From positions 2,914,001-2,978,000 of the forward strand of contig OZ024847.1 of the NCBI GenBank assembly GCA_964017145.1: DNA of 64,000 nucleotides, in the 5' to 3' direction. The translations under genes and the position numbers were made by a program. Below the pieces are notes generated by a model, which saw nothing but the letters and a program-made list of their open reading frames with translations, was not told the DNA's origin and did not search any database. This DNA is from Agrocybe praecox (Eukaryota > Basidiomycota > Agaricomycetes > Agaricales > Agrocybaceae). Numbering within the stretch: position 1 is the first letter of the stretch; each line of letters opens with the position of its first letter. This document shows positions 17,980-64,000 of this stretch, one piece after another.

Positions 17980-19723
17980 TGCTTGCTGCGGGGTTGAGTG
18001 TGTATGTACGATTTGTACTTTGTATATACTCCGAAACAAAACCCAATCAATGTGATTAGTTCTTTCGTGGGAGGGATACGCGATACGCATCGTTAATTAT
18101 GTTTTCTCTCAAAAGATACGCTCTCTAATGCAACAGAACGTTTCCTAGGATCGAAGATCACAAGTGTTTGAGTAGCTTACGCACAAAGCGAAGTTCCTCG
18201 GAAAGTGTAAACGTAGGTTTAATGTGTTTCCACAAGATGTAGTGTGTAGGTAATTCGCCACTTAGGCTGGATACTTAATCCAAAGTCTTTTAATCACTCA
18301 GAAAGGGGACTCAATCCTAAACGGGCCACTTAGGCGTCACTTAGACTATTTGCCACTTAGGCAGGGAACTTATCCCTCGGAATGGGCCACTTAGGCGTCA
18401 CTTAGACAATTTGCCACTTAGGCAGGGAACTTATCCCTAGGAACGGGCCACTTAGGCGTCACTTAGACAATTCTTGCCACTTAGGCGGGTATTAAGCTTT
18501 ATGTCACTTAAGACAGAGGAAACTTTATCCCAATACATTTATTTAGGTTCCTCGAGAACTCTACAAGTTAACTCAAGTCGCTCAACTAACGCCAAGATGC
18601 TCAAATGACACGGTAGGTAGTCTGTTCAATAAAACCAACTCTCGCGGAGATTTATTAGGTACCAAAGGTCGATCCTAGGAGTTTGCAACTCAATGCGCGT
18701 TCCTCGAATGTGGACAACTGGGTTCTAGTTTATCTGGGGTGCTACGGTATTTTACAGGCTGTTTATATAGTGCTAGATCTCGGAAAATACAGGAATACTT
18801 GGAACGGATCGGAAATGCTCGGAAAATACAGGAAATAATATTATTGGTTAACGCTAGGTAGCTCCACTCGATGCATAAGCAACCAGTAGGTACCATGCGT
18901 GTTTTTGTATACCCTCGGAAGGGTTCGTATGGTTGGGCAAGTCGCTGACTCGAGCATGACGCTCCGAGGGCGCTTATTCGCATTAGCCGACGATCATTGA
19001 TCGACGTCGTAGGGTCCGAAGCATCGGAGTACCGTGGTATCGTATGGATCTACAATCCTCGGCTCCACAACTGCCGTTTAAGGTAACTGCGCATATCCGA
19101 GGGTCTTAAGACCATGTGTAAGCGTTCCTAGGAACTTCTCCTTTTAGGTTTATCGGCAATCTGACTCGAGCAGACGTCGGCAAGTCCTAATTGACATTAC
19201 TAGTGCTTGTCTCGTCGTTTGCATAGTGCCCACTATGTTCCTAGGGACCAGTAATGTACTTTGTTAATGCTAGGATCAGTCCTACCGCCTTGAGTTAGCG
19301 TTCCTAGGAACGTTGGCAGTAGTTTACATGTACTTTCATATGGTGGGAACTTTCCGTTTCCATATTAGGTAGATGTGGACGCATCGCGCACTGCGTAATA
19401 ATAAGTGGCTATAGCGCCGTTTAAGCTTATTATCAGCAGGCTCTAGCTTACATTCCTGATGGTTGAATATTATCCTAGGAGCCTTCGATCCTGCTGCATC
19501 GCTGTTAAAGCGTTCCACGCATTTCCGAGGAACTACTATAACTAACTCTAGCATTCGTAAGGTTCGTCCTAGGGTTCGTAGAATGGTTTCCCCTAGCCAA
19601 ACATGTAGCTATCCTCGCTCTGTACTTATGTAGACTTAATAATAAACATGTTTATTATGCCGAAAATTAAGTAGGATAGATACTTGGTTAAAGTTCAGTC
19701 ACAGCCGAACACCAGTCGTATCA
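17980..19723 (-). repeat. 3' LTR of the retrotransposon (left copy)
   Basis: On the plus strand the LTR begins TGCTTGCTGCGGGG and is inferred to end ...GTATCA at 19,723, where a pyrimidine tract (the purine tract of the minus strand) begins. This gives the usual TG...CA ends and a length near 1,744 bp. The first 1,292 bp match 62,709-64,000 with about five substitutions. TAAGG directly left of 17,980 is a candidate half of a 5-bp target duplication, but TAAGG also precedes the right LTR internally, so the boundary could shift by 5 bp. Motifs of the TTCCT(A/C)GGAA type occur about 17 times in this LTR. Confidence 0.85.
18323..18505. repeat. Three 61-bp tandem units inside the LTR
   Basis: Units starting at 18,323, 18,384 and 18,445 each contain GGGCCACTTAGGCGTCACTT, then TTGCCACTTAGGCAGGGAAC, then CCCT(C/A)GGAA. 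The same 61-bp periodicity occurs in the right LTR at 63,052, 63,113 and 63,174. The repeated CCACTTAGGC and CCTMGG elements may be enhancer-like sites in U3. Confidence 0.85.
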
Positions 19724-19738
19724 TCTCCCCCCAACTTA
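19724..19738 (-). promoter_or_regulatory. Polypurine tract next to the 3' LTR
   Basis: Plus strand TCTCCCCCCAACTTA; on the coding strand this is a purine run just upstream of the 3' LTR, the normal place for the plus-strand primer of reverse transcription. An identical 15-mer occurs again at 22,471-22,485. Confidence 0.7.
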
Positions 19739-20093
19739 TAATTCGGACTGTCCTCAGTCATACTTCGAGTTAGGCCTCTGCCGTTTTCTGGTTTTTGCTT
19801 GCCTATCAGATAAAAACTCTCGTCTTATCTTTCTCTTTGACAGGTCTTTTACTATCAGACTTAGCCATATTACTTGTAAGCTTTTCTTTATTAATTACAA
19901 GCTCATGCTATTTTTAGTTTCGAGTTCTCCGCGCCTTAAGGCCTTTGCGAATAACGAAATAAACTCTTGAGAAGTTTGATACGAGTCACGTCGTAATCGC
20001 TTCTGGTTCAGGGTCGATTTTCCCCTAGGATATAAGGAGGTCTGGTAGGGTTTATTCGCTAAGTCCCCCTTTTCTTTCCTTCCCTTTATCCCT

Positions 20094-22142
20094 ATGTCTA
20101 CCTTTGGTAAGGCCTCATACCCGGCCGGTTTTATCGAGTACGACGTTGACTCCTTGTCTTCTCTCGACGCCGAGAAGGCCTACTTGCTTCTCAAATCCGA
20201 GTTTGATACTCTGAATGACCTTGTGAAGCCTTTCCTTGCCTCAGTCCGTTCAAAACAAAGGGCTTTGACCATCGCCGGGTATGCGGTCCCTGTGCTAGAG
20301 GCCATGCAACCCCACATCGTACGTCCCTTCCATTCTTTTCTTATGTTACCATGTCCTTACACCGCCCTCATCCTTAGAGCGGTTCTTGGACTCGTCCCGA
20401 AGCTCATAAGCTCCTATGCCGGTTTCGCCTTCGATGGGCTACTGTGGCGACTCTTTGTCTCATGTTTTGTCCTCCATCGGAACCAGTAGTGGAGGTTTTC
20501 GACGAATTCTACGTTAACGGTACCCCCTCTCTGGCCACGACTGCCGAGTTATGGAACCAGTGCGACGTTGGATCCGACGCCGATGAATTCTTGAACCAGT
20601 ATGCCAAGATTCAAAAGCAGATTGCAACAAGGAACGCGAAGAACACGAAGAACACGAAGAACACGAAGAACACGAAGAACACGAAGAACACGAAGGGTGC
20701 GAAGAAAACCTCGTCCAAAAACCCGCGCCCTAAGCCCGAGCGTCCATCCTCTTCGAAAGCTGCAACGCACGTCATCGATTCCAGTTCCGAGGACGAAGAC
20801 GCACCGCTAGTTCAGCCGGACATCGACGAGCTCGAGGGGGTATCGGAGGACGGCGCGACGCCTGTCCCTGCTCCCAGCTCCGATGGTGTCGAAGTTAGTG
20901 GTTCCCTTCTCCCTTCTATCGCGACTCTCACGCCCGTTCATTCCACTCGCTCTTCTACTCGAAAGCTCGTCTCAGAAGTCTTGCTTCCACCACCTTCTCG
21001 TATTGGCACTCTTCGCAACAAACGCGTCCACACTTCCTCGGAAGTGGCCGACGACGATCCCTCCGCGAAGCGTCCCAAACGAGGCAGTATCAAGGCTACT
21101 CAGGACTTCGTCAAGACTGAGCCCCATACGACTCATAAGGTATGTTTTCTATTTTATTTTATTTTTCCAGTCCTTGCTCCTTATGAGCTGACTTTTTATT
21201 TCTTAGTCGGGCAAGAAGGCAGCCGCTGAGCAGCGTGCCGCCAACCTTTCCACTCATTCTGCTCCCCTGTCGTCCGTCATTCGATGGGACGACGTCCTAG
21301 GGTTCACTCCGCACGTCGAACCTGTAAGTCTCTGCTTCCGCAATCTTTTTCCTTTATGCTAAACGTTTCTTTTCATAGCATGCAACGGAATGCAGCGTGT
21401 GCGTTGGTCAACTCCTCGAATGTACCCCTGCCGTCTTCGGACAACTCTGCGGTACTTGTGACACCCGCCACATTACGTGCTGTGATCACAAGGCGGAGGA
21501 CACAGTCCGACTCGCTCACCGCAACGCTGCCTACGAGCGCGGTACTTTTTCCATTCATCGTAAGTCCCATATTTCTTTATCTTTCTCAAAAATCTATTAC
21601 TAAATGTCTTCTTTTTAGATCTCAAGGACCTTGTCGAGCGTGCCCGCGAATCTCGTGAACAGGAACGTCGCCTCTTGGACCTCTTTAGGTCCCAGCAGGC
21701 CATATCCATCGATCTCGAGGTCCAAATGCAGCAGTTCATTCGTGACACGGTCGTTCTTTTCCCAGAAGGTCCCGGCGCTATCATCCGCTCCGCTTTCGAG
21801 GATGTGCACGTCTTTCAGGCGTTCTGCCGTCAACTCTCTGCACTGAACTTTCCTCCTTCCGACGCAGACGACCGTATCCAAATGCTCGAACTTCTCCTTC
21901 GCCGCATGCCTGATGCAATCAAGGCTCGCTTTCCGCCTCATCTTCGCACTCTGCTCGACTCGTCTCTCCCCTTCTTCCACATCCCCGTTGACGCACCCGC
22001 CCCCATCGTCAACGCTTCGGCTAACACTACCGCGTTGGCTATGGAACATGACGACTCGGTTGCAGAAGGGCCTCAGGTAGAAGACGATGTGGATATGGAG
22101 CAGGCCGTCGCGGACGTCGACACGAGTACCCTTCCCGCCTAA
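20094..22142 (+). CDS. Antisense gene A: Cys-cluster protein carried by the retrotransposon
   Basis: Five exons join cleanly: 20,094-20,318, 20,378-21,139, 21,207-21,323, 21,379-21,559 and 21,619-22,142, giving about 602 aa. The frame is open throughout with GT-AG introns. Visible parts: an N-terminal helical region, an Asn-Thr-Lys repeat near residues 155-175, a long acidic/Ser-rich linker with basic patches (nuclear-type), a Cys/His cluster in exon 4 (CSVC ... CGTC ... CCDH) and a helical C-terminal domain. It is antisense to gag-pol, so its introns survive copying through the genomic RNA. No known family recognised; the cluster suggests zinc and perhaps DNA or RNA binding. It lies between two copies of the polypurine tract. 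Confidence 0.7.
20634..20696 (+). repeat. 9-bp minisatellite coding Asn-Thr-Lys
   Basis: About seven tandem copies of AACACGAAG within exon 2 of antisense gene A, translated as repeated Asn-Thr-Lys. The multiple of three keeps the frame, so copy number can vary without breaking the gene. Confidence 0.9.
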
Positions 22143-22715
22143 CGCACTTATGCTAGAAAAACCTTCGGTTCTATTAAATTAGAGCACTATGGTTTTTTTT
22201 TATTTTCTAGCATTTCGTTTTCGCCGGTGTAGGGTTATTTACTTTTTTTTTTTTGTGCTTTCTATTTGTAATGCTTTGTCTTGCGGGCTTCATAGCCCAA
22301 CAAATTATATGTCTTTATTCTTGGTCTATACTGCAAGCTTTTTCTTTTGAGATGTGCTTGTCTAAGAGAATTTTTCTTTCAGTATTACCCAGAACAATAT
22401 CCTAAGTTCTTGGGTAATTCCAAAAAAAGCGATTCTTCTAAGTTGCTAGGATATCCTAGTAAGTGGGTATTCTCCCCCCAACTTAAAGAAACGACCTCCG
22501 GGTCGTCCTAGGAAATCCTGACATACCGGTGATGCCCGTCATTCTCTTAACAGTATGTCCAAAAACAGCTAATCATCTTCCCAATCTGGAAAAAAAATGA
22601 TGGCTTAATTCCGTGTGGCTGTGCAACAAAAGCGGATAAGTACCCAGCGCGATCTTCCAGAGGCGTATAAAAAGGTGTGACAAGCGAAAGGCAGATCCTC
22701 GTCGGTCTTTTGGCT
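22143..22715. other. Intergenic region with second polypurine-tract copy
   Basis: Non-coding DNA between antisense genes A and B. It has T-rich runs at 22,190-22,250 (a likely 3' end for gene A). At 22,471-22,485 it holds TCTCCCCCCAACTTA, identical to the 15-mer beside the 3' LTR. A TTCCT-type motif (GTCCTAGGAAAT) lies just after it. The second tract could prime plus-strand synthesis internally or mark an old duplication. Confidence 0.6.
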
Positions 22716-23095
22716 ATGTCTGCCTACCCACCCCTAGGAGTCATCTTCAATCCTCAAGCACTGTTAGATACCATGGACCAGTATCAAACTGAAGCCATGC
22801 TGTACCTGGACGTACTTGACGATTTGCTAGAGACGCCTATCCAGGCTAATCCTGCTCGAGTAACGTTCCTAGGAACTGATCAACGATGGTTCGCGCTTGT
22901 CAGCGCCAAACAACGCCTGGACGAAGCACTTTCCAATCCTGCCAACGGTACCGAGGAACTCCAAAAAGAGCGTAACTTGCCTCCCCTGGAGCTCATACTC
23001 CGGGTAACCGCTGCCTTGGTAAGACCAACTCGTCGTCCTTATGTTGTATGCGAGGAGAACTCACTCTTCTTAGATGCAGTTCCATCCTGACGACA
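22716..23095 (+). pseudogene. Antisense gene B, 5' part, interrupted by the Plavaka element
   Basis: ATG 22,716 opens an exon to 23,018 (101 codons), an intron of 61 nt, and a second exon starting at 23,080 that is cut at 23,095 by the transposon. If the transposon and one copy of its CA duplication are removed, the frame continues open from 23,095 into 52,882-53,165. The intact gene would encode about 200 aa. The N-terminal part is helical and unfamiliar. This copy cannot make the full protein unless the transposon excises. Confidence 0.7.
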
Positions 23096-23215
23096 CATCA
23101 GGAAAAACACTTTGCGCCCTGACAGTCCCCAGAGCATCCCAAGACGCCGTGGGGCAGTCAGGGCAGTCAGGGCAGTCAGGGATCATAAATGCTCCTGAGA
23201 CCCTTCTTCATGAGC
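23096..23215. repeat. Left TIR and sub-terminal GGGCAGTCA repeats
   Basis: The 19-bp TIR is followed by CGCCCTGACAGTCCC and then three tandem copies of GGGCAGTCA at about 23,152-23,180. The same family of short repeats borders the 755-bp element at 59,411-60,165, linking the two. These are likely transposase binding sites. Confidence 0.8.
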
Positions 23216-23964
23216 TACGGTTAGTCTGAGGACTTAATGGGGCAATCTAGGGCGTTTCAAGGCATCTTTAATCAGATTTTACATTTATCTCATGTATGCT
23301 ACTTCCTTACTCGGTTATTAAGTACAAAGCTACACAAGCATGCATTTAAATGTATCATAATAAATAGGATAACACATGTATTCAAAATATATAATATATC
23401 TGTTTTCGAGTACTCCTAACTCCTAATTTCCTGATTACCATCAAAGACATATCATGTATACCTCAGATTTATTATATATATCAGCAATCCTTGGGTATTC
23501 CTGAGAAGAATAGATTTGAATTAGAGGTCAGAGGTGTGTCTTATACTTAAAATGTGTTTCAACGTGTTTCAAATACTCCTAAATAGGACAAAATTATAAA
23601 GGAGGTTCCATGACCACCCAAGAATATAGTAAATATGCAGGGCGTTGTAGAGCTTCCTCGTAGATTTAAAACACAGCAAAGCATATTAGGAACCTCTTAA
23701 TAAGCCATAATTGCATTAATTATTAATAATAGTACACGAGAATTAAAAGATGTATATATAGGCAGAGCAGGGCAGATGGAGCAGAAAAGGCAAGTGAAGC
23801 AAAACACTATGTACAAGCAGATAGACGGTGGTTGGGGCAGATAAGTGAAAAGCAGATGTGACAGGACAATATTTACAGATAAGGGAAAGGCAGAGGAGGG
23901 ACGACAATATCTGTAATTAGGGAGATGGCAAGGCTGTGGAGCTCGGCATGCAAGACACAACATT
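23216..23964. other. Non-coding left end of the Plavaka element
   Basis: AT-rich DNA with no gene I can support, between the sub-terminal repeats and the 3' end of the DUF6532-like gene. Purine-rich repeats of 'ggcagat' type lie at 23,760-23,910. Confidence 0.5.
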
Positions 23965-26015
23965 TCACGTAGTAGCAGAGGTCATAGAAGCCGATTCAGA
24001 AGCTGTAATAGCCGATGCAGGTGGTTGCTGAGCTGGAACCGGGCCTCGTAATTGTGCTTCCTCTGCGGCGACAGCATCCAGTAAGCCAAAGTCCACTCCT
24101 TCAAAGTCGTCATTAGGATCACCGATTGCTCCTCCACCAAATATCTGTGATCTTAAAGCTTATATGAGAAAAACATATATCGTAACATAAGAAAAAGGAG
24201 TATTACTTAATTTGTGTAAGCATTGCTTGTTCAAGTGTATTCGTATATACAGGGCTTCGCTCCTGAAGCAGCCTGTATGTGTTCATGTGATGAATATATC
24301 TACGCAAATTTGGAAAGCCAGGGAGTGAGAAAGCCAGAGAGCGTAGACATTCAAAAGAATATTACCGTTGACTGCAATTATCTTCACTAAAAGAGATGTT
24401 GGCCTTTGAACCAGACGACCAGCACTTGAGGCAGTTTTCAATCTAAAATTTGCTTCTTAATTAGGAAGATTTTTCCTAATAAAGAAATTGCGTACGCAGG
24501 TCACAACCAGAACGATAACCTCTGGAAAAATCCTACTGGCTGCCATCATTGCAGTATAAGAACCATTGTCCGTTCGCGTCTTGCCAAACCATTGAAGCCT
24601 GATGACGTCTGTAAATATGGGATTACCAAATGGCTTCTGCTTGTTGCACCGCTCGGCCTGCATAAAAATAGAACAATGCTATCAAAAGCGAGAAAAAAGA
24701 AAAAAAAGAATGCTTACAACAATGTCAATGTCACCGTACTTAAAATTTCCTTCCTTCATGAGCCATTTGATCTTCTTCTGAACAGCATCAGTCGTGAAAC
24801 TTCCTGGAATCCGGTAATGTCCATTAATAAGGCTTGTAGACTTGGAAGCGAGAGAGCTTGTCAGTGTCCCACGTCCATAAGAAGCCTGTAATAAATTTTG
24901 AGTATTCAACATGCTGAGTAGTAGGATAGAAGTTTAGATCCCACGTATGTTATAAGATTGTCAATGAGTATCTTATCCTTCTTCTTGATCAAAGTTTTCA
25001 GAATAGACGCCAATGACGGTACAGCTTTTGACTTGTCCAAATCAGCAGCCTTTTTGACTAAGTTCATTGTATGTTGGTTTCGCTCCTCGGCCGACTTTGG
25101 AGGAAATGCTCCAGCAAGGGCAGCACGTTCACGAACGTAGACCTTTGCGACCACAGCTAAGCGACGAATTTCCAAAGGGAAATCACTTTCTTTGATTTTG
25201 CCAGACTTATTATGTGTCGTGGCACCATGCCTCTTTACCCTTTTAGAGGACGCTGAACTGGCCTGGGTATATATCTAAACAAAAAGTCAAGATTGTCCAC
25301 AAAAACGTAATCAGGATCTCTTGAGTGGACTTACTCCTGCAGTAAACAATGCACTATTAGTTTCTCTTTCCTCTTCCTCTTCCTCAAGTTCGTCTTCGTC
25401 TTCATCTTCATCTTCTCGTTCAGTATTTCCTCCCTCTGAACCTTGTTGTGAGTCTAGATCATGGTCGTTATTACCCTCACTTTCAGCATCAGGCTGGGAC
25501 TCCATGTCTTTATCACCCATAAGGGCGTCAGCTAGAACAGCCTCATCGTCATCCAGAATTGCAGCCTTCTTTTTTTTGTTAGGCCGAGCCGCAGATTGCT
25601 CGCCGTCAGAAAATCCTTCTGGATCGTCCTCAGAATCTTCGTCCCTCATCTCGGCATTCCGCTTCCTGGTTGCTAAATAGAGTGATAGATAGAATATGTC
25701 AAACGATAGAACCGTGAGATAGATTTATCTACCTTGGTCTGCTGCAAGCTTCTTTGCTGCGTCGGCCTTCTTTTTTTTAGCGTCAAGCTGTGCAAGTAGC
25801 TGCTGATCCTTGGGAGTAAATCCTGGGCCTGGTGAATTAGGACTTTCAGATGGTTGTGGCGTCTTCTCCTTATTAGAGTTGGATTTTTTTGACTTAGGCT
25901 TTTTCTGCGTTGGCTGGGTAGAGGGAGGGGGAGTCCCAAAAGAGAGTGGGCCTACAGGCAGCAACTGAGAGGCGCTCCCGGTTCTCCTTGTAACACGTTG
26001 AGATTGACTTGCCAT
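23965..26015 (-). CDS. DUF6532-like nuclear protein, Plavaka cargo
   Basis: ATG 26,015, stop TGA at 23,965-23,967. Clear exons are 26,015-25,733, 25,672-25,335 and 25,274 to about 24,955, with four or five more to the stop. The N-terminal half is low-complexity: Pro/Ser-rich, a Lys-rich nuclear signal (PNKKKKA) and a long Asp/Glu run. The C-terminal half is ordered, with a helical start (FPLEIRRLAVVAKVYVRE) and a core near 24,650-24,500 (NPIFTDVIRLQWF ... FPEVIVLVVTC) that resembles the DUF6532 domain common in Agaricomycetes; this match is from memory and tentative. A donor near 24,955 (GTGGGA) is weak. Function unknown; it sits next to the dioxygenase gene in the same direction. Confidence 0.6.
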
Positions 26016-26206
26016 TTGTAATGAAGAATAAAGTAGCCAAGTATAAAAGAGTTTGGTGTTTTGTTGAAGTTAATCCTGAGATGCCACGACGAATAGTTAG
26101 GTTTGAGCCCAGAAACAAAGCAAAGACAAACAAAAGATCATTAATATGACGCTATTGTAAACTATAACATTTTAAACTATATTATCTAGATACTTAGATT
26201 CTGCTT

Positions 26207-29510: not shown

Positions 29511-29520
29511 CTCGCTTAAC

Positions 29521-52616: not shown

Positions 52617-52689
52617 ACATGTATACTATAAATAATGATTCACGTCATGGTTCTATGTCCAAATCATAATAGTTGTATACCCTTTAGGA

Positions 52690-52879: not shown

Positions 52880-53165
52880 CATCAAGTATGGCACAGAGCT
52901 TGGACACATATTCATTGACATTAGCTTTCACTGGGTGGTCATATGGTACATGAACTTCACTGCGTCGCCGATGAACGCCTGGATATGTCGTGTTTTATTC
53001 GACCACACACTTCCTAGGTGTTCCGAGCGTACTGTAATGGTACGTTATGATCTCAAGAACTGTCCTCAGATTAAATTATTAATGCAACTGGGTTTCAGTC
53101 ATGCGGCGGTTCGTGGGGGGATCGCCTTGAATCGTTCCTCGCATCCAACGCTCCACTCGCACTAA
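52880..53165 (+). pseudogene. Antisense gene B, 3' part
   Basis: After the CA duplication, the frame continues from 52,882 to the stop TAA ending at 53,165. It reads TELGHIFIDI, ICRVLFDHTLPRCSERTVMV, YDLKNCPQIKLLMQLGF. The N-x4-L-x-x-LGF ending is reminiscent of the C-terminal part of GNAT acetyltransferases, but the acetyl-CoA loop is not clear, so this is a weak suggestion. See the 5' part at 22,716. Confidence 0.6.
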
Positions 53166-53593
53166 CCAGCAAACTTCAACGCATTTTCAAGTTTCGCATG
53201 TGGCACCAAGGCCAAGTATCTTAAAAGAGGTTTTCCAGAGCAGGCGTCATTCCTAGGGTTCCGAATGCGCTTCATCGGAATGGTGAAGTTTTCATTCGAT
53301 CAGTAGAGTAGTATTTGTACTGTACCCTTCTTAGATCGATCCATCGTTGCCCATATGCAGCCATCATGCTCCAACTCGATCCTCAATACAATTCGTACTT
53401 CCGCTCTCGTAGTCCGAGTAAAATTTTCATTGTTGTGTCTCCTTGCGCACATGTCCTCTCGAGCGGGGCCACATGGTTCCTCGGAATGACGACTCTGTTA
53501 AATTTTACCACAGCACTATAAAGGCGGGTCGATTTTCGAGGTCCTAGGATTCAACACCAAGGTGCTATCTTCCCAGTACACGCTTTCTCTTGC
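53166..53593. other. Intergenic region upstream of antisense gene C
   Basis: No coding supported. Contains several TTCCT(A/C)GG motifs (for example near 53,252, 53,478 and 53,543). It should hold the promoter of gene C; the phrase CACTATAAAGGCGGG near 53,513 is TATA-like and about 80 bp upstream of the ATG. Confidence 0.5.
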
Positions 53594-54956
53594 ATGCCCG
53601 ACCTTTCTCCCAGCGTCCTCGAGGTGAAAGCTGCGGTAGGTGTGCAATACCACCTTGCCAAAGCCAAAACCATTTCCTCGGAGAAAAATGGCGAGTCAGC
53701 CTCCGCTCACTTGGCTCTCATCTGTGAGAAACTTGTAAGTGACCTTCCTAGGACCGCTCTTCTCTGCTTAACACGCTTCCCTCGACATCGCTCAGGCTCC
53801 CTGGTTCGAACAGTCAGACAATGTCTGGCTCGCTGGACAAGAGGCGTTTGACTTGGTGTTCAATCTCCGAGATTCTCTTGCAGCACTCGTACGCTTAGGC
53901 AGCGAGTATTCCAGGAGGTTCTCCAAGGAGGCCCAGTCCGTTAGCCTTCTCATCAAGTTCATCTATGCCAAGCGCACTTCTACTGGTCTCTACTGCCCCG
54001 GCGGTCCTCCATTCATGAATCTGAAGAAGAAGACTTCGTCCGAAACTGTCGAAAAAGCCACAACTGCGGACCCTGAGGTTGCAGATAATGGAGCACACAC
54101 CGCGGTATGTCCATCTCTTTTTACTTCCTCGGATCGTTTTGACTGATGCCTTTTGTTAGAACAAACAACGCTCTGGTCGTTTGTATAAAGAGAAGGTTGA
54201 CTCGGAAGAGGTAGAGGTCGTATCTTCTACTACCTCTAATTTTGAGCTGACTTCTGACGAGGTAATGAAAACCCTGTCCCCTTTTCTTATGAACCTTATT
54301 CACGCGGTGCAGGCTATGCAAGTCGACGACGACATGGTGGAGGTGGCTTCTATTGTCAGCGCTCCCCCCGCGTCGCAGAGCCGCAAAGGTAAAGGATCTA
54401 AAAGAGAGGTCCTCTCTCCCAAGGCAAGTACCTTATTTCACTTCCTAGGAAATTGGGACTGATTCATTACTCGTATCAGCCGGAGGCTTCCTCTTCCTCG
54501 AAACCTTCCAAGGCCGAGAAACGTGCTGAAACTCGCATGCTCGAGTTCGAGGACGTTCCTGGAATTGCTACAGACTCTGGATCTTACAAGAAAGCGTCCA
54601 AGTCGGTCAAGAAGAGCAAAACCAAGGATACTGTGGACAGTACGTTTTGATTTTCTCTTATGTGTTTTGTTCCTCGGATACTAAATTGTCTTGCTTTAGT
54701 TACCCTCGAGAACACTATTCTTCCAAACACCTTCTCGCCTCAATCTACAGCCGTCGCTATGAACATTGCTGAGAGCATCGCTGCGAAGTTCCTTCAAAAC
54801 CGCGATGTCGCTGCACTTGAGCGTCACCTTAGGTGTCTCCGGGACAGTGCTCAGGATGTTGACTACCAGATCTGGCAGTCTGTTGGGCAGCGTCAATTCA
54901 TTCAGCGCCAAATCGTCTCCCTCGAGAAAGCTCAGGTTGACGCTAAAAAGGACTAG
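53594..54956 (+). CDS. Antisense gene C: helical charged protein carried by the retrotransposon
   Basis: Five exons, 53,594-53,734, 53,796-54,104, 54,160-54,423, 54,480-54,639 and 54,700-54,956, give about 376 aa. The third intron has a GC donor (AAG/GCAAGT). The N-terminal 150 residues are helical; the middle is Lys/Ser-rich with acidic patches (nuclear-type linker); the C-terminal 85 residues are helical and coiled-coil-like (ALERHLRCLRDSAQD). The layout of ordered end, charged linker, ordered end resembles gene A, but I see no sequence similarity. It ends 58 bp from the pol stop on the other strand, so the two are convergent. Function unknown. Confidence 0.7.
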
Positions 54957-55014
54957 TCTTATCCTTCCTAGGGTACAAGCTATATTCGAGTAGACTCATA
55001 ATATATTTGTCTTT

Positions 55015-58000
55015 TTACTCATTTTCATTTTCGTTTTCTGAAGCCGATCCTCGGAGAGTTACTTCTCCTAGTATCGGGTCGTACACATCCTCGGGTCCAT
55101 TCTCAATCAAATCTAGTGCCGAAGTTGGCATATCTATCAGAGTCTGAATCGACTCAGGTAGTTCTAGATGTTCTCTAGCATAGTATGGTACTACTCTGAA
55201 GGCTCCAATTTTATTCTGTAAGACCGCTCCATTCATTTCGGCGACTATATAGGACCCTCCCCGAGTTCGTCGTATGACAATCATCGGTCCTAGGTACCTA
55301 GGTTTCATTTTCTTATCCAAGGATTTTTCTATGGTAGTATCCCGTACCAAAACCAAATCTCCTGGTTTAAAAACGTAGTCCTTGATGACAGCTTTGTGGT
55401 CTTGCTCATATTTCAATAGACGCTCGTATTTATCTTGGTCTACCCTTTTGCGCATCTCATCCACATGAAGTTTATGTTTGGCGAGCGCTTTTGCTCGGAA
55501 TCCAATTAACTCTTCATCTGATAAAATTCGCTCAGGAGGTTTAACCAACCAAGTAGCTTCTTGGGCGTCTAAAGGTAGAATTGGTGATGCCCCTGTTACC
55601 ATGAAGAAAGGTGAACATCCTAGACGTTTCCTGACCGTTACTCTATCTGCCCACTTAATGTAAGGAAAGAACCAGAACCACTTGTTCACATCGTCTTTTC
55701 CCAGCATTTTGTACAGCATTTGTCTGACATCCCAATGTGGTCTTTCTATAGCGCCGTTGGCCTTCGAGTTATAGGGTGAAATCCGAATTCCCTTAATCCC
55801 ATATTTTTCTTCGAGCCATCGTGCAGCAGCTAAGAATGGTCCCCCATTGTCTGTTATGAACTCCACCATACAAGCCCATCTACAAATGATGTCTTCCCAG
55901 ATCCATTGACCGATTGACTTGCCATTTTCCTTTTTTAAGGGTCGCCCTTCCATATAAGAAGATAGAGCGCACCTTCCATGGACAATATACGAGCAACCGT
56001 TCGATGGAGGAGTCATGTTGATACAGTCCGCATGCATACTTTGAAAAATAGAAGGAGTATGTGTAATAGATGGTTTTATTCTTATTAATGTCTTTTGTCT
56101 TTCCTGACAATTATGACATGTCTTAACGAACCAGTTCACATCTTTCTCCATTTCTGGCCACCAAAATCGTTCCACTAGCAACTGATTAGTCGCATAGAAT
56201 CCTCGGTGCCCCACATGATCATGCGCAGCCGTCAACATGTACATCCTTTTATCTTTGGAGACCACTAATCGGTGCTTGGTTCCATCTCCCCTTCGATACA
56301 AACGTTCCTCGAATAATATGAATCGTTTTGCTAATGTTATAAAACGTTTATACTGTTTCTCGGACATCCCTATCGGTCTGAAGGATCGATCCTTGTGCCA
56401 TTCCATCACCCAATCTAACTTGTGGTCTTGTGCTTTAGCTGTGTCCGACCTATGTTCCTCGGGATATCGTATTTTCTTAAATTCGTTTTCCTCGGGTAAC
56501 ATAAGTGTAGATACTAGCTGTTGCACATAAGCACATCTCTCTTCTCCTAGAGCCTCTTTATTTCGACTGATGTGTTCTTCTAGGAAAGCTTTTTCCGACA
56601 TACGAAACTCATCTGCTTTAGCAAGCTCCTCTGAAAAGTCTTCGACGTCTCTAGCAATGCCCTCGTACTCATCGTCTTTTTCTATTAGACTAATGAAAGC
56701 TTCTAATGGTAATGGTTCAGAAACCTCCTGTAGATATCCTCCTCGGGAATCTATCTTATCTTTGAAGGTCTCGGTTTCCAACGGCATAGGCCCATTAGGA
56801 TCCGCAAACTCTATTTTGATGGGCGCTTCTGGCTCCATTTCCTCGGAACCAGCCTCCCTTAAGGGTGGATCATTTGGCTGCCTTGGCCTCCTAGAGAGTC
56901 CATCAGGCCCGAATGTCTTTCCTGGTACATGCCTTAGAGTAAAATGATACATCCCAATTTGGTCGATCCAGCGATTGATTGTAGCATTAGGCATAAGGTC
57001 GGGATTGCGAAGCATTCCAGCGATATACTTAGCATCTGTCTCGACAATCAACTTTCGGACTCCAATTAAATGTTTTCTATTTTTCTCAAGTGCTAATTTG
57101 AGTCCGTAGAGTTCTCGTTTGGGCTGAGAGTATCTAGCTTCGTGTTCTTCCAAGGACTGAGATCCAAAGGTAACATAGTAGTGTTTCCTAGGATCTTGAC
57201 TATCCTCTTGGTAGATGTACCAGCCGGCTGCAATATAAGAAGTGTCTACTGCTAGTACTATATCTCCCTGACCATGATAGTCTATAGGCCTTAAGCACTG
57301 AGCATCTCGGACTCCTTCTTTCATTAACTGCATACTCTTTTCTTGATCAGGACCCCATTCGAAAGGTACTCCTGCTCGCATTAGCTTGTGGATGTGTTTT
57401 GCACGATCTGCAAACCTCGGAATATATGCTCTCAATACTCCGCAAGTTCCATAGAAGGAGCGCACATCCGACACATTTTTCAAAGGTCCCCAATCGAGGA
57501 TAACCTTAACTCGACTCTCAGTAGGCTTACGTCCATCCAAGGAACATAAATGTCCTACTACTTCTACAGCATCTGCGCATATGACAGTTTTATACCCCGA
57601 GAAAGTTCCCCCAGAATATTTCATCCGTTGTATGATTCGATTTACATTTTGTAAGTGTTCCCAAACGAATTTCCTAATGCCAGGGTTCTCAGGTAACACC
57701 TCATAGGTCCCATCCTCATTTTGATAACGAGAAGCTGGTCCTCGGAAACCTACATCGTCGATATATGGACTTGTGTACTCAGGAATTTCATCCTGTAAGA
57801 TGTGGGTTACATCGTCGTGGAATATGGGTACTGAGTTTGTCCAACCCATGGGTAAGGTCGTTAACCTTAGTGCACCAAAAGGCGATTGAAAGGTAGTAAG
57901 GTCCCTAGAGCTTTCAGCCAAGGTTCGCTCATCGTACCCAACATATAAATCTCCCATTCCAACACAAGCACGTCCACAAAAGTGAATAGCAAGTTCTTCC

Positions 58001-58731
58001 GCAGCTGGTGGGACCCCTGAGTGCGCTATAGTAACAGCGTTCAAAGGTTCCAAGCTTTGGACTATTCGAAGACTTTTCCCATCTTTCTTTAATACAGCAA
58101 ACCACCTCGAACGATAGGACGAACACGAAGGTTCCATTACTCCACTTTTCAACTTGGATCGGATTAATTCGCAAAGTGGCTCGTATAACCCTGGTGAAAT
58201 CGGAATATTTTTAAATACCCAAGGAGTGTGTTCTACCATAGGCATAATGACTGGCGGAAAGAACTCTTCCTTGAATTTTCCTCTTTCCAAATCATCCCAA
58301 GCGAAAGCTTCGTTCTGGTTCATAAGTAGCTCGTGTATTGATTTCCGTTCCTCGGACCACAGAAAGTCCCCTTCGTGCTTAGCGTCAAAGGCTTTCATGC
58401 GTTCCTCGGTGTACCTTCCTGTTGGTTGGAAGTCTGGTGGATTAACACTTAAGGGTGGCATATCCTGCAATGGATCCCCTTTAATATTTCGATGGATTCT
58501 CAAGTTTTCTGGAAGTTCAGTGTAAACTGGTCGGACTTTCTTGTCTACCGGTTTGTACTTTTTTCCTAGGAAAACTGAAGCAGAAGGTTCATTCTCTTTA
58601 ACCTCTGGTTTAATATCTTGTAGATAAATCTGGAACTTTCTTTTGTCCGCAGTCTCTACATGCTCGCTATCTACTGCTCTTGACAAGAAAACATTTCTTA
58701 GGCCATCCTTGGAAAATGCTTTCTTATCCAC
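55015..58731 (-). CDS. Retrotransposon pol: reverse transcriptase, RNase H, integrase
   Basis: One uninterrupted ORF of 1,238 aa. The reverse transcriptase covers about residues 180-430 with DLYVGYDE (motif A, Asp near 261), LTTLPMGWTNS and the catalytic YIDD near 323-326. RNase H follows at about 490-620 (VLAVDTSYIAAGWYIY, ETDAKYIAGML). The integrase begins with an HHCC zinc domain (HDHVGHRGFY ... CHNCQERQ, about 840-880), then the DDE core: HADCINM, FITDNGGPFLA and NGAIERPHWDV. A GPY/F-like module (RYLGPMIVIRR) is near the C-terminus; no chromodomain seen. All key residues are present, so this ORF could be active. The order RT-RH-IN marks Ty3/gypsy. Confidence 0.93.
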   Translation of the reverse strand: MDKKAFSKDGLRNVFLSRAVDSEHVETADKRKFQIYLQDIKPEVKENEPSASVFLGKKYKPVDKKVRPVYTELPENLRIHRNIKGDPLQDMPPLSVNPPDFQPTGRYTEERMKAFDAKHEGDFLWSEERKSIHELLMNQNEAFAWDDLERGKFKEEFFPPVIMPMVEHTPWVFKNIPISPGLYEPLCELIRSKLKSGVMEPSCSSYRSRWFAVLKKDGKSLRIVQSLEPLNAVTIAHSGVPPAAEELAIHFCGRACVGMGDLYVGYDERTLAESSRDLTTFQSPFGALRLTTLPMGWTNSVPIFHDDVTHILQDEIPEYTSPYIDDVGFRGPASRYQNEDGTYEVLPENPGIRKFVWEHLQNVNRIIQRMKYSGGTFSGYKTVICADAVEVVGHLCSLDGRKPTESRVKVILDWGPLKNVSDVRSFYGTCGVLRAYIPRFADRAKHIHKLMRAGVPFEWGPDQEKSMQLMKEGVRDAQCLRPIDYHGQGDIVLAVDTSYIAAGWYIYQEDSQDPRKHYYVTFGSQSLEEHEARYSQPKRELYGLKLALEKNRKHLIGVRKLIVETDAKYIAGMLRNPDLMPNATINRWIDQIGMYHFTLRHVPGKTFGPDGLSRRPRQPNDPPLREAGSEEMEPEAPIKIEFADPNGPMPLETETFKDKIDSRGGYLQEVSEPLPLEAFISLIEKDDEYEGIARDVEDFSEELAKADEFRMSEKAFLEEHISRNKEALGEERCAYVQQLVSTLMLPEENEFKKIRYPEEHRSDTAKAQDHKLDWVMEWHKDRSFRPIGMSEKQYKRFITLAKRFILFEERLYRRGDGTKHRLVVSKDKRMYMLTAAHDHVGHRGFYATNQLLVERFWWPEMEKDVNWFVKTCHNCQERQKTLIRIKPSITHTPSIFQSMHADCINMTPPSNGCSYIVHGRCALSSYMEGRPLKKENGKSIGQWIWEDIICRWACMVEFITDNGGPFLAAARWLEEKYGIKGIRISPYNSKANGAIERPHWDVRQMLYKMLGKDDVNKWFWFFPYIKWADRVTVRKRLGCSPFFMVTGASPILPLDAQEATWLVKPPERILSDEELIGFRAKALAKHKLHVDEMRKRVDQDKYERLLKYEQDHKAVIKDYVFKPGDLVLVRDTTIEKSLDKKMKPRYLGPMIVIRRTRGGSYIVAEMNGAVLQNKIGAFRVVPYYAREHLELPESIQTLIDMPTSALDLIENGPEDVYDPILGEVTLRGSASENENENE

Positions 58732-58829
58732 CTGTGTCGTATACGATTCTATTTTTATTTCTCCGGTTTTATGATCATATTCAAAAACAACTGCCGCCTC
58801 TCCCTGGTCTTCCAGTTCATTAAGGCAAT

Positions 58830-60693
58830 TTAAAAAGGGTCGTCTGGAGACTTAGGCGGTAGTTCCACCACTTTCTCGTCAAACTTTTCTTTTTGCAGCT
58901 CAATCGGTCCCTTTCCTCGAGCATAAGTAGGAATTACTACTCGTCTCTTGGAGTTAGGATCAGTCAAGAGAACCTCCACATATCCGTCCGTCATAGTCTT
59001 TACTACACTCGTCGTAACCGTGTCAAAAGGCTTTCCTAGGAGCACCCTGTAAGGCGGGTTCCTGACGATATGTATCTGTAGATAGACCACTATCCCTCCA
59101 ACCATTATTTTTACGTTCTCTGCGATTCCTAGAGTCCGTTCTAACTGGTTGTTGGCACTTTGCATATTTATGCTAAGGGAAGGGTTCCAGGATAATCCCA
59201 TCTCTACAGCGACTTGTTGTGACATAGATACAATCTGAGATCCACTGTCTAAGATAGCATTTTCGAATCCTACATTATTAATTTGCACTTGAATCTCCCG
59301 AAGACTTTCAGCGTTCCTGGCACGGTCCCTATAAGGTTCCTTGGGTACGGCTCCATTATGTTCGAGCGCAAACTGATAATAAGGGTCACTGGCTACAATG
59401 GCGTCTGCAGCATCAGGAAAAACACTTTTGCCAAAAGTAACCCTGAGAGAATTTAAAATAACAAGGAGTATATAATGCATCCTAAAGGTCCTTAAAGGTC
59501 CTTTGGGAAGTTCTGAGTTGTCCCTTAAGGGTGTTCTAGGCTGCCCTGGGTAGCCCTGAATAGCCCTGACAATATTATAATACTGTGAGGAAGTCCTATG
59601 CACCCTGAGTAGCCCTGAGTAGCCCTGGGTAACCCTGACAACAATGTTTCTACAATATACTTAATTATAGTAGCTGCCAAACCTGTAAAATACATTCAGA
59701 ATGACACCTAAGCAGCCCAGAAGTTGCCAAGCTATCTATTTGGATGTTTATATATTAAATAATAGCAATGTGGTTGGAATTGATGGGATCAAAAAGCAAA
59801 CACATGACTTTTTACTTGCCTCTATTTACATGTTTGGCCTCCACTGATGTCATTTTATGGCCTCAAATATGAACAAATAATAAATAAAAGATTGGCAAGC
59901 TTCCATCATATAGGATATGAGACAAACAAAACTTGTAAGTTAGCAAGATGACTTTGGACTTTGAGATTTTGAGATAAGGTTCTTTTGTTTCAGAGTTGCT
60001 CTGAGGTGTCCTGAGTTGCCCTGGGATGCCCTGAGAGCAAGACTAGCTGGGAGAGATGGACCTGGGGGTGTCCCAAGAGCCATGACTGCCCTGACTGCCC
60101 TGACTGCCTTATGGCATCCCTGGACTCCCTGAGGGCAGTCAGGGCAAAAAGTGTTTTTCCTGATGAGGAAGATTACTCAAGCTTGGACAATCTTTTGCTA
60201 GGAGGAATTGAGAAACCGGCAACTGTTCTACAGCTAAGCCTGTCTCGATTTCATGATACAGGGGAAGTTCCTCGTGTCCCTTGGAACACATCTCTGTTTC
60301 ATGATCATCTTCTAGGATCTCCTCCATAAGCACTGCTTGTCTAGTTTTCGTAAAATTCTTTCTTAACGCCTCTCGTATGTGTGGCGCACTTCCCACTAAG
60401 TGTTTTAATGGTACTGATATGGACATATCCAATATGTCGTCCACCATTTTATTTCCGTCCGTGCTATCTTCCACAGGTGCCCTAGTACGGTACGCAGGCA
60501 CGGGTCTTTCCTCTTTCTTCTCGTCCGAGGAAGTATTCGTAGGCCTCGATACTCTAGACATAGGCAGTACATCTATGTAAGGTAACAACGGTCTTTTGGT
60601 CTCGCTCTTTTTATTATTTTCTGGTTGTGTCTCTTCTCTAGGAACTTCTGGTTCTTTATCGAATCTGACACTTTTCTTTTCTTTACTAAACAT
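58830..60693 (-). pseudogene. Retrotransposon protease ORF interrupted by a 755-bp element
   Basis: The right part (60,693-60,168) is Lys/Glu-rich and leads to CPSLSNLP; the left part (59,408-58,830) continues ADAIVASDPYYQF and contains ILDSGSQIVSMS, the Asp-Ser-Gly active site of a retropepsin, then MVGGIVVYLQIHIV and VLLGKPF of the same fold. Removing 59,411-60,165 plus one AG copy joins the two in frame to about 370 aa. As it stands the ORF is broken, so this retrotransposon copy probably cannot make a normal protease. Confidence 0.8.
59411..60165. mobile_element. 755-bp non-autonomous relative of the Plavaka element
   Basis: TIRs CATCAGGAAAAACACTTTTG (59,411-59,430) and the reverse complement at 60,145-60,165, with AG duplications at 59,409-59,410 and 60,166-60,167. 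Sub-terminal DNA is packed with CCCTGAGTAGCCCTG and CCCTGACTGCCCTG phrases, matching the sub-terminal repeats of the 29.8-kb element. No coding capacity. It could be mobilised by the transposase at 49,440-52,616. Confidence 0.88.
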
Positions 60694-60785
60694 CCCTTTA
60701 CTCCTGCTGTTATTGTTCTCAAGGTTCGTAGCTATTCTCGGACTTATTCTCTTAGCCCCAGCTGCAGGTGGTCCTATCCTTGAAC

Positions 60786-62516
60786 TTAAGGAAAATTTTC
60801 GAAAGCATCTACCGCACCTTCGCCAAAGAGTACTCGTTCGAGAGCTTCTTTTCCATGCTCTCTTACTAAGTCGTCTAAGCGCCTAGAGATGTCTTCCGCG
60901 GGAGGGCAAACTTCCTCGGATTGAACGAACATCTCACAATCTTCTTCATACTCAGGATAATACCCTTGCATGGCTTGGATTTTGGCGTTGGGAATAATCC
61001 CTGGTTTATTACGGTACATGTTTTCTACTGCTTCTCTCATAGACCTGAATCCTTGGAGAGGTATGGGCTGTCCAGACGCTAGCGCATACTTTCCCTCGGA
61101 ATTCCTTTTGATCCAATTCGACTTTACATGTTTATCTGCTGCCGCACAGTCAGCTAGACGATGTCCAGGCTCTCTACAATAATAGCAGTGACTGGGTTGG
61201 AACCCATTTGAATTATTGTAGGAAGACCTATCATAAGGCCTAGGGTACATAGAAGACGGTTGCGTTGGTTGAGGGGCCACAGCTGATTGCTTCCAACTTA
61301 CTAGGGTAGATTGTAGGCTTTCAAACTTCCTCTCCGCAGCTTCTGCTCGCTTTTCCTGTACTTCTGACTTCTTTAATAGAAGATTTAAGCCATCCGAGAG
61401 CCTAGCCACGGTCTCCTCCATTTTAGGGAAGAACTCAGGAGTTTCCTCGGGTTGAGTTTCCATCGTTCTCCTTCTCGAGGAAGGTTTCTCAGAACGAGTT
61501 TCTTTATCCCCCTCGTTCAAAATAGATTGTGACCTTCTCAAAGCCATGTTTACAACAATTTCCATGACTTTGGCGACTTTGAAATCGGTTCCTAGACCTA
61601 GACTATCTTTATTTTGCGCCATGTCGATGACATGTAGTGCCTGCGAGATTTCGTCTCTGAAACCTCTTTCTAAACAGCTTAAGAATCGTTGTATTAGATC
61701 CCTTTCAGACACTTGACCCGCTAGCTTTCGAGATAGAGTGGTAAACTTGAGTTTCAGCGCCATGATTTCCTCTAGGTCTGTTTTCATCAAGCTATTCCTG
61801 TCTACATATCTCGAGCATAGTTTATCAAGGTCGTGTAGAGATCCTTTTTGTAGGCGCATTGCCGCTGGATACGAAGCGATCAATTCGTCTTTAAACTTTG
61901 ACCAGTCTTTCCCGGTATATGCGTTAAAAGACTTCCAATCATCCTCGCATACTGGCGAAGCATATTTCCCTAACATAATAATTTTCTTTTCATCCGTATC
62001 AGCTTCCGTAGGATATTGAACCCAGAGATCTTCCATTCGCTGTATGAAGCGGAGGAGTTCCTCGGGACTCTTTTCATCGAACTTCGGCGCATCTCTGCTC
62101 ATAGGAGAAGGGAAACCCATCTTTGGTGATACTGGAGTAGTGGGTCTACTTGTAGTAGGTTGCGTTGGTGAATTAGGAGCTAGATTCAACTTGTCTAATA
62201 GACTAGCGATGACTTCTAAGCTGTCTGATTCTGAAGTTGTCTCCCTAGGATTTTCGAGAGAACTTGTATCGATAGTAGGTCGATTAACCGGTATCTGAGG
62301 TGCACTCGGAGGTCTGATTAACTGCCTATTTTCTGGAGTTGTAGGTCGCTCTCTGCTTGGTTCAGCTGGAAAGTCTCCTGGAACTCTTTGGGAGGGCGTA
62401 CTCGCTCTGGTTTGCCTTTTCCTAGGAACCCTAGTAGGTAATTCCGCGAAACCGGCTTGTCTCGAGTTATTCGTTTGCCTAACTCGTTTAGCTTGTCCTG
62501 CCGGTTGATTATCCAC
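60786..62516 (-). CDS. Retrotransposon gag
   Basis: ORF of 576 aa. N-terminal 130 residues are Arg/Pro/Ser/Thr-rich. The middle (about 150-330) is a helical capsid-type region (KFDEKSPEELLRFIQRMEDL ... VERGF-like core), with a coiled coil near 360-400. A CCHC zinc knuckle, CYYCREPGHRLADC, lies at residues 444-457 and would bind the genomic RNA. It continues 119 residues past the knuckle. Gag, protease and pol are in three separate frames with short gaps (92 and 98 nt), so downstream proteins need re-initiation, frameshift/bypass or splicing; no obvious slippery heptamer was identified. Confidence 0.88.
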   Translation of the reverse strand: MDNQPAGQAKRVRQTNNSRQAGFAELPTRVPRKRQTRASTPSQRVPGDFPAEPSRERPTTPENRQLIRPPSAPQIPVNRPTIDTSSLENPRETTSESDSLEVIASLLDKLNLAPNSPTQPTTSRPTTPVSPKMGFPSPMSRDAPKFDEKSPEELLRFIQRMEDLWVQYPTEADTDEKKIIMLGKYASPVCEDDWKSFNAYTGKDWSKFKDELIASYPAAMRLQKGSLHDLDKLCSRYVDRNSLMKTDLEEIMALKLKFTTLSRKLAGQVSERDLIQRFLSCLERGFRDEISQALHVIDMAQNKDSLGLGTDFKVAKVMEIVVNMALRRSQSILNEGDKETRSEKPSSRRRTMETQPEETPEFFPKMEETVARLSDGLNLLLKKSEVQEKRAEAAERKFESLQSTLVSWKQSAVAPQPTQPSSMYPRPYDRSSYNNSNGFQPSHCYYCREPGHRLADCAAADKHVKSNWIKRNSEGKYALASGQPIPLQGFRSMREAVENMYRNKPGIIPNAKIQAMQGYYPEYEEDCEMFVQSEEVCPPAEDISRRLDDLVREHGKEALERVLFGEGAVDAFENFP

Positions 62517-62683
62517 TTTAGCTTCCTCGGAACTTTAGAACCGATTTAATTGAGCTTCAGCCAAATGTTTTTGTGTTTTTGTTTTTAATAAACCTCGTCA
62601 AGGTTTATTCACTCGTTTAATCTGGACACCAAGATGCAATCTCTCACTTCGAGACTCGTAACTTTAGTGAAAGAAAACACCCT
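62517..62683 (-). other. Retrotransposon leader
   Basis: Untranslated DNA between the primer-binding site and gag. It contains an A-rich plus-strand stretch and TTCCTCGGAAC just before the gag start (about 62,522-62,532). Confidence 0.6.
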
Positions 62684-62701
62684 CCCTCGCGGTGGGCTCC
62701 A
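62684..62701 (-). promoter_or_regulatory. Primer-binding-site candidate
   Basis: On the minus strand, 7 nt inside the LTR end, TGGAGCCCACCGCGAGGG begins with the TGG expected to pair with a tRNA 3' CCA. The donor tRNA was not identified from memory. Confidence 0.6.
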
Positions 62702-62708
62702 GATAAGG

Positions 62709-64000
62709 TGCTTGCTGCGGGGTTGAGTGTGTATGTACGATTTGTACTTTGTATATACTCCGAAACAAAACCCAATCAATGTGATTAGTTCTTTCGTGGG
62801 AGGGATACGCGATACGCGTCGTTAATTATGTTTTCTCTCAAAAGATATGCTCTCTAATGCAACAGAACGTTTCCTAGGATCGAAGATCACAAGTGTTTGA
62901 GTAGCTTACGCACAAAGCGAAGTTCCTCGGAAAGTGTAAACGTAGGTTTAATGTGTTTCCACAAGATGTAGTGTGTAGGTAATTCGCCACTTAGGCTGGA
63001 TACTTAATCCAAAGTCTTTTAATCACTCAGAAAGGGGACTCAATCCTAAACGGGCCACTTAGGCGTCACTTAGACAATTTGCCACTTAGGCAGGGAACTT
63101 ATCCCTCGGAATGGGCCACTTAGGCGTCACTTAGACAATTTGCCACTTAGGCAGGGAACTTATCCCTAGGAATGGGCCACTTAGGCGTCACTTAGACAAT
63201 TCTTGCCACTTAGGCGGGTATTAAGCTTTATGTCACTTAAGACAGAGGAAACTTTATCCCAATACATTTATTTAGGTTCCTCGAGAACTCTACAAGTTAA
63301 CTCAAGTCGCTCAACTAACGCCAAGATGCTCAAATGACACGGTAGGTAGTCTGTTCAATAAAACCAACTCTCGCGGAGATTTATTAGGTACCAAAGGTCG
63401 ATCCTAGGAGTTTGCAACTCAATGCGCGTTCCTCGAATGTGGACAACTGGGTTCTAGTTTATCTGGGGTGCTACGGTATTTTACAGGCTGTTTATATAGT
63501 GCTAGATCTCGGAAAATACAGGAATACTTGGAACGGATCGGAAATGCTCGGAAAATACAGGAAATAATATTATTGGTTAACGCTAGGTAGCTCCACTCGA
63601 TGCATAAGCAACTAGTAGGTACCATGCGTGTTTTTGTATACCCTCGGAAGGGTTCGTATGGTTGGGCAAGTCGCTGACTCGAGCATGACGCTCCGAGGGC
63701 GCTTATTCGCATTAGCCGACGATCATTGATCGACGTCGTAGGGTCCGAAGCATCGGAGTACCGTGGTATCGTATGGATCTACAATCCTCGGCTCCACAAC
63801 TGCCGTTTAAGGTAACTGCGCATATCCGAGGGTCTTAAGACCATGTGTAAGCGTTCCTAGGAACTTCTCCTTTTAGGTTTATCGGCAATCTGACTCGAGC
63901 AGACGTCGGCAAGTCCTAATTGACATTACTAGTGCTTGTCTCGTCGTTTGCATAGTGCCCACTATGTTCCTAGGGACCAGTAATGTACTTTGTTAATGCT
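62709..64000 (-). repeat. 5' LTR of the retrotransposon (right copy, truncated by window)
   Basis: Matches 17,980-19,271 with about five substitutions that I could see (for example 'acgcgtcg' for 'acgcatcg' near 62,817, and 'caactagtagg' for 'caaccagtagg' near 63,610). By comparison with the left copy it should end near 64,452. As the upstream LTR of a minus-strand element it would drive gag-pol transcription. The 61-bp tandem units recur at 63,052-63,235. Confidence 0.88.

Follow-up and report, generated by a model that had tools for sequence, protein, structure and literature searches.

A young Ty3 LTR retrotransposon family in the genome of Agrocybe praecox carries three spliced genes, A, B and C, which lie between pol and the 3' LTR on the plus strand, antisense to gag-pol. 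Comparison of the family's copies clearly identifies gene A as a real spliced gene under purifying selection, and its predicted product combines a Zn2Cys6-like cysteine cluster with a long helix. The window analysed here, a 64,000-nucleotide part of contig C8 in this 59-Mb genome, holds one copy of the element.

Structure of the element

The element and the insertions that it harbors are arranged as follows.

17975-64000, continuing to about 64451, minus (sense): Ty3 LTR retrotransposon, from its LTRs and collinear copies
17975-19722, minus: 3' LTR, from LTR comparison
19727-19737, minus: polypurine tract beside the 3' LTR, reading CCCCCCAACTT on the plus strand
22474-22484, minus: second polypurine tract, CCCCCCAACTT, between genes A and B
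23096-52879: nested PlavakaB-type DNA transposon, 29,784 bp, target duplication CA, foreign to the Ty3 family
55015-58851, minus: pol (RT-RNaseH-integrase), from its ORF and domain matches
58830-59660, minus: aspartic protease frame, which reaches 431 aa where the 755-bp insertion is absent
59411-60165: MITE-like insertion, 755 bp, with terminal repeats similar to those of the nested transposon
60786-62534, minus: gag, 582 aa, with a weak zinc-knuckle match
62704-64000, running past the window edge, minus: 5' LTR, from LTR comparison
adjoining the 5' LTR: presumed primer-binding site TCTGGAGCCCACCGCG, from its position

The original prediction was of a Ty3 element of about 16 kb. The copy in the window measures 46.5 kb with its two nested insertions and other copies about 15.9 kb, in agreement with that size. 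The best solved match of pol is the Ty3 Gag-Pol (E 1.4e-28), with RT-RH at 228-654 and integrase at 862-1108. The order of protease frame, RNase H and integrase zinc domain is that of Ty3, and the ends have the features of Ty3 elements (Metaviridae), namely LTRs, the polypurine tract CCCCCCAACTT and 4-bp target duplications in 8/8 copies. The LTRs are about 1750 bp long and, over the 1297 bp that could be compared inside the window, 99.6% identical; the right LTR ends outside the window at C8:2978451 (window position 64451).

The 29,784-bp insertion starts with CATCAGG, finishes with CCTGATG, is flanked by CA on both sides and encodes a Plavaka transposase (PF18759, E 9.5e-83). Its empty site, seen in another copy, reads GACGACATCAAG. 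A second copy of this transposon has both of its ends, at C12:2097516 and 2127243, and its own target duplication, TG. The transposase, the termini CATCA..TGATG and a duplication in the 2-3 bp range are those of PlavakaB, and the termini match the description in the available part of PMC12730594. Other copies of the Ty3 element are collinear with the window and lack both insertions, such that 23095 joins 52880 and 59410 joins 60166. A single 46-kb giant retroelement is ruled out, as the 29.8-kb stretch is absent from the other copies and has its own ends, target duplication and second locus.

Copies and age of the family

Searching the genome with 400 residues of pol, we found 11 full-length copies at 98-100% identity, and we compared the gene A side of the 10 other copies and both LTR ends of eight. 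Six of these eight LTR pairs show no difference, and the other two have one and two mismatches in 1749 positions; the family is young. Target duplications have the form NCGN in all eight copies, and TCGT occurs at one solo LTR. CG stands before the last base of the left flank in 12/12 cases (10 copies, the window and the solo LTR), where CG makes up 4.6% of dinucleotides in the window's left flank. Among the eight copies pol (read in two adjacent loci) is open in seven, the protease in eight and the 582-aa gag in seven, the broken copy among those checked for these frames being that at C10:962k. Both CCCCCCAACTT tracts are present in the window and in all 10 other copies.

Three spliced antisense genes

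The exons and predicted protein features of the three genes are given below.

20094-20318, 20378-21139, 21207-21323, 21379-21559 and 21619-22142, plus: gene A, 602 aa, TATA-like box at 20031-20037
21379-21559, plus: exon 4 of gene A, six-Cys cluster with Zn2Cys6-like spacing 2-6-8-2-7
21619-22142, plus: exon 5 of gene A, long N-terminal helix and probable coiled coil, from a predicted model
22716-23018, 23074-23095 continued at 52880-53039, and 53099-53224, plus: gene B, 202 aa, TATA-like box at 22666-22672
53594-53734, 53796-54104, 54160-54261, 54313-54423, 54480-54639 and 54700-54956, plus: gene C, 359 aa, TATA-like box at 53518-53524

Three plus-strand spliced genes had been predicted between pol and the 3' LTR, and all three are present with their splice sites kept. 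The predicted range of 2-5 exons per gene needs correction to 5, 3 and 6 exons, with four introns in A, two in B and five in C, one of which is GC-AG. The prediction of open joined frames holds for A and C, which are open with GT/GC-AG splice sites kept in 11/11 copies, but fails for B in the window, where the nested transposon splits the gene and the first two bases at 52880 are its target duplication. Gene B is nonetheless recognisable in 11/11 copies and open in 9/11, the other exception being C10:962k with an internal stop. Exon borders in the copies were projected by alignment from the window for A and C and from the C8:804k copy for B. The copies elsewhere in this genome thus bear out that A-C belong to the element. 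TATA-like boxes sit 50-76 bp before each ATG. Among the matches listed for this genome, B is found only in the 11 copies and C only in these and one fragment at C13:2076k; these matches give no support to a host origin of the two genes within this genome.

Two copies, C10:259k and C2:3330k, carry a diverged gene A that we term A'. Their A block shares 79-80% identity with that of C8:804k and 74-75% with that of the window. In the B/C block, by contrast, they are 98% identical to C8:804k. Comparing A of C8:804k with A' of C10:259k gave a dS of 0.943, a dN of 0.127 and a dN/dS of 0.134 (bootstrap 0.104-0.173). Exons of A and A' are 71-87% identical versus 41.5-73% for introns. The low ratio, together with exons less diverged than introns, argues that A is a spliced protein gene under constraint. 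Gene A in the window is also a mosaic, because residues 501-600 differ from C8:804k at a dS of 0.42 as compared with 0.02-0.06 elsewhere. Selection on gene B is suggestive (window versus C8:804k, dS 0.115, dN 0.024). Signs of selection on gene C are weak: among copies the ratios are 0.4-0.8 with bootstrap ranges beyond 1, the copies being too alike, and comparison with the 1.3-kb fragment on C13 gave a dS of 0.083 and a dN of 0.033.

The product of gene A and its homologue A2

The Cys/His cluster predicted for gene A is real, with six cysteines spaced 2-6-8-2-7 that are kept in a distant homologue, A2. A2 is located at C4:377498-379515, with a second locus containing stops at C8:2457410-2459427. 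The spacing in A and A2 fits C-x2-C-x6-C-x5-12-C-x2-C-x6-8-C, and a pattern of this Zn2Cys6 type has a single occurrence in the six-frame translation of the window and none in a reversed control. The A2 gene at C4 keeps the six cysteines at only 30% identity over the exon. The top Pfam match of this A2 exon is Zn_clus (PF00172) with an E of 0.13 and 12.9 bits against a cut-off of 21, and A's own exon 4 gave no Zn_clus match in Pfam. Because neither A nor A2 reaches the PF00172 cut-off, we call A Zn2Cys6-like and not a member of that family. Zn2Cys6 proteins usually have basic residues between Cys 2 and Cys 3; gene A has none there, which counts against the Zn2Cys6-like reading.

A and A2 have exon lengths of 117 and 181 nt in common, which implies that the introns around these exons predate the split between A and A2. 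No in-phase join of exons 1 and 2 was found for A2. Near A2, tblastn with gag, protease and pol gave no match in 19.5 kb (C4) or 14 kb (C8). A solo LTR of the Ty3 family lies inside the C8 stretch around A2.

Profile and structure searches of the products, which the original prediction had named as a check, gave a long helix in exon 5 and the sub-cut-off Zn_clus match of A2, with no domain at a curated cut-off and no PDB match of note. Whole A and C gave no Pfam match at E <= 1, and the single match of B at that threshold was a weak one to GAS2 (E 0.24). The AlphaFold model of exon 4 is poor (pLDDT 42.8). The exon 5 model places a helix at residues 2-46, with block pLDDT values of 83-95 for residues 1-40, but taken together the model is weak (mean 59.4). 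Gal4-type proteins have a dimerising coiled coil in the position after the zinc cluster. Foldseek with the exon 5 model returned three matches, all with E above 5, and PDB sequence searches returned nothing for exon 5 and one chance match for exon 4 (E 1.6). Searching a protein database with whole A and whole C gave no match at E <= 0.001, a viral-contig scan gave none for A, and an alignment search with exon 5 found one 147-aa protein, 84% identical and without context.

A palindrome enriched in the element

The repeated TTCCT(A/C)GGAA of the original prediction is likewise real and is strongly enriched in the element over expectation. Its forms TTCCTAGGAA and TTCCTCGGAA are candidate sites for protein A. 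The core TCCTMGGA occurs 6 times in the LTR (0.02 expected), 9 times in the B+C block (0.17), 10 times in gag-pol (0.37) and once in the A block (0.07), versus no occurrence in the nested transposon (0.75) or the left flank (0.39). The most over-represented 8-mer of the element is CCTAGGAA, with 22 occurrences against 0.6. The six pol sites fall in all three reading frames, so an amino-acid repeat does not account for the palindrome. Across the genome, forward matches to TTCCTMGGAA number 483, versus 116 for the reversed pattern, and it is absent from the stretches read near three related pols. The positions of the motif show no clear gain in conservation over random 8-mers: in LTRs 6/7 sites are conserved versus 65% and 5/7 versus 76%, in gag 0/1, in the protease 1/1 versus 20% and in the A block 1/2 versus 31%. 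This comparison counts against the idea that the sites are recognised.

The second polypurine tract might represent a central tract, or else a remnant of the gain of gene A. The motif-poor A block and the exchange of A for A' fit the latter.

Related pol families

We also read the stretches beyond three related pols, on C6, C13 and C7. By eye, the C6 stretch contains an apparently spliced gene opposite the pol strand, about 2.4 kb beyond the pol match, that holds KCNKCESTGDEC and KCFACRIRGNSC along with a basic segment and a tail that looks heptad-like. A search found this Cys-cluster gene in the same layout at one further locus, C8:3447k, beside a related pol with one stop, and did not find it beside the other four pols of 59-60% identity. 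We count this apparently spliced antisense gene of a related family in favor of the explanation preferred below. The stretch behind the C13 pol has no A-like gene. By eye, the C13 stretch contains a glyoxal-oxidase-like gene, and in that of C7 a further pol-like frame ends on the opposite strand.

Proposed mechanism and alternatives

We tentatively favor, at somewhat short of even confidence, the explanation that A is a dimeric DNA-binding regulator that marks copies of the element for expression, with B and C as accessory proteins. The TATA-like boxes suggest that A, B and C would each be read from their own promoters. The genomic RNA would be the opposite strand and so would never lose the A-C introns; this logic, which the original prediction offered for their persistence, is sound, and the element illustrates how a retroelement can harbor introns, namely on the strand that does not get packaged. 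With its six-Cys cluster and long helix, the product of gene A would be a dimeric Zn2Cys6-like DNA-binding protein that recognises TTCCT(A/C)GGAA across the LTR, the B/C block and gag-pol, and could act on the element's own copies as an activator or as a counter-silencing factor. Regulation is our leading idea because of the parallels with VANC (PMC5735166), with HBZ and APH (PMC10186651) and with TRP28 of Retand (PMC11963269), as described in the available parts of these sources. Counted against a regulator, besides the Pfam, structure-model and motif-conservation results above, is the TATA-like box of A, which reads GATAAAGG in both A' copies. A more specific version, which we regard as rather unlikely in its entirety, is that the antisense spliced zinc-cluster protein, expressed independently of the LTR sense promoter, binds the built-in palindrome and frees copies from host silencing, as a retroelement counterpart of VANC whose gene is swapped between copies as a cassette.

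Doubtful, yet the most substantial alternative, is that the antisense proteins are accessory factors for RNA, particle or nuclear import, and that the palindrome is a host transcription factor site exploited by the element. This would accommodate the lack of a recognised DNA-binding domain at a curated cut-off and the confinement of the Cys cluster to the A block, outside B and C, and what is available of PMC7264820 discusses comparable non-DNA roles for the antisense ORFs of plants. It sits less easily with a Zn2Cys6-like spacing that adjoins a long helix, and with the rarity of the motif both elsewhere in the window and in the stretches read of related elements. The evidence for binding would serve equally well if gene A were a self-limiting repressor that binds its own copies and keeps transposition or copy number low. 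By analogy, HTLV HBZ and APH dampen sense expression (PMC10186651, available part), and a family of 11 full-length copies is small. We nevertheless consider a repressor improbable, given that selection for an element-borne repressor needs an extra argument and that identical LTRs in 6/8 copies do not point to tight repression.

Purifying selection on A over a dS near 1 strains, for A, the notion that A-C are passive passengers, that is, captured host genes or gene fragments with no role in the element. The related family, which keeps an antisense Cys-cluster gene at two loci in the same layout, also speaks against passengers, and we give this explanation very little credence even though A2 exists outside any recognised element and the young age of most copies has left B and C too little time to decay. 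We attach equally slight weight to the possibility that the antisense transcripts act as RNA, through duplexes, silencing or counter-silencing, with protein frames that matter little. Antisense RNA roles are proposed in PMC7264820 (available part), but A shows constraint at the codon level and its introns have diverged more than its exons, which argues otherwise.

Comparison with known systems

Plant elements are already known to have antisense ORFs in the region from pol to the 3' LTR, and in Botrytis the antisense gene brtn is known. The available text of PMC7264820 and PMC11963269 calls the roles of antisense genes in this position undetermined. In a literature search we found neither a set of several multi-intron antisense genes nor a zinc-cluster antisense gene in any LTR element; it left subscription literature mostly uncovered, so such absence is unproven. 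The present family is a tractable case, as a single fungal genome holds 11 young full-length copies that offer a spliced gene under selection, with a recognisable layout of metal cluster and helix, and a candidate binding site.

The plant Ty3 elements Retand, Grande and RIRE2 have antisense ORFs in the interval from pol to the 3' LTR (PMC11963269, PMC7264820). Like the element described here, they have a long region in this position and ORFs that are conserved in most copies and for which a DNA-binding or regulatory role is proposed. The antisense ORFs of Retand carry TRP28 (PF04195), whereas A, B and C have no such match, and the word intron appears nowhere in the text of the two papers. Boty-type elements of Botrytis cinerea, with the antisense gene brtn (Zhao 2011, cited in PMC8365987), are likewise fungal LTR elements with an extra antisense gene; compared by description only, they have one named gene as opposed to three.

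The HTLVs, which are unrelated viruses, also produce spliced antisense coding transcripts, and several of the products are nuclear regulators of sense transcription. According to the available part of PMC10186651, their antisense RNAs start in the 3' LTR, whereas A-C each have their own TATA-like box and several introns. Fungal TET/JBP DNA transposons, including those of Agaricomycetes, provide a case in which a transposon-encoded escape from silencing has been proposed. As far as the available text of PMC12730594 goes, no retrotransposon encoding TET/JBP was found, and Pfam gave no match of A-C to a TET/JBP enzyme. VANC of the VANDAL DNA transposons differs from the present case in belonging to a plant DNA transposon, and the VANC21 motifs are found for the most part in non-coding tandem repeats, in contrast to the palindrome, which is scattered and also occurs inside gag-pol (PMC5735166, available part). 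As an idea, however, VANC may be a close parallel: a transposable element encodes a protein for recognition of a short motif that has built up within the family. The palindrome is likewise a short motif enriched in the copies of its own family.

A nested transposon with apparent chitin synthase cargo

Within gene B, one of three multi-exon genes antisense to gag-pol in the Ty3 family, the window copy holds a 29.8-kb PlavakaB-type DNA transposon, located as follows:

Window 23096-52879: PlavakaB-type transposon
C12:2097516-2127243: PlavakaB-type transposon
C93:37945 onward: PlavakaB-type transposon

Both ends of this element are present at two loci, each of which has a separate target site duplication (TSD). 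When two interior stretches were used as queries, we observed 99-100% identity at C12 and C93 and partial matches elsewhere. Inside the transposon, on the minus strand, lie matches to chitin synthase (E 6e-62), myosin head and cytochrome b5, and the apparent cargo is a myosin-motor chitin synthase. A stretch at C4:559-560k, with 67-69% similarity, may be the native gene.

A 755-bp MITE-like insertion (window 59411-60165) has terminal repeats resembling those of the PlavakaB element, and pieces similar to it occur at several other loci. The window also contains arrays of ~62-bp repeats at 1187-2315 and 10039-10591 in mutually opposite orientation, the first being partly inverted internally.

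Target site and relatives of the Ty3 family

Comparison of LTR flanks showed that the Ty3 family integrates at CG, with a 4-bp TSD, NCGN, at eight of eight copies and one solo LTR. Related loci are:

C4:377498-379515: A2, a distant gene A homologue
C8:2457410-2459427: A2, second copy
C5:3016065-3026064: short relative(s) of the family
C6:1986960-1988349, minus strand: antisense gene beyond a related Ty3 pol
C8:3446669-3448058: the same antisense gene, again beyond a related Ty3 pol

A2 and gene A have exon lengths in common. No pol was found near either A2 locus, and the C8 copy contains stops and has lost cysteines. The short relative(s) on C5, whose LTRs are ~90% identical, retain pieces of gag and protease together with a gene A remnant containing stops; because this stretch gave no match to pol, gene B or gene C, they are probably non-autonomous. 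The antisense gene on C6 and C8 is apparently spliced and has two C-x2-C-x6-C motifs.
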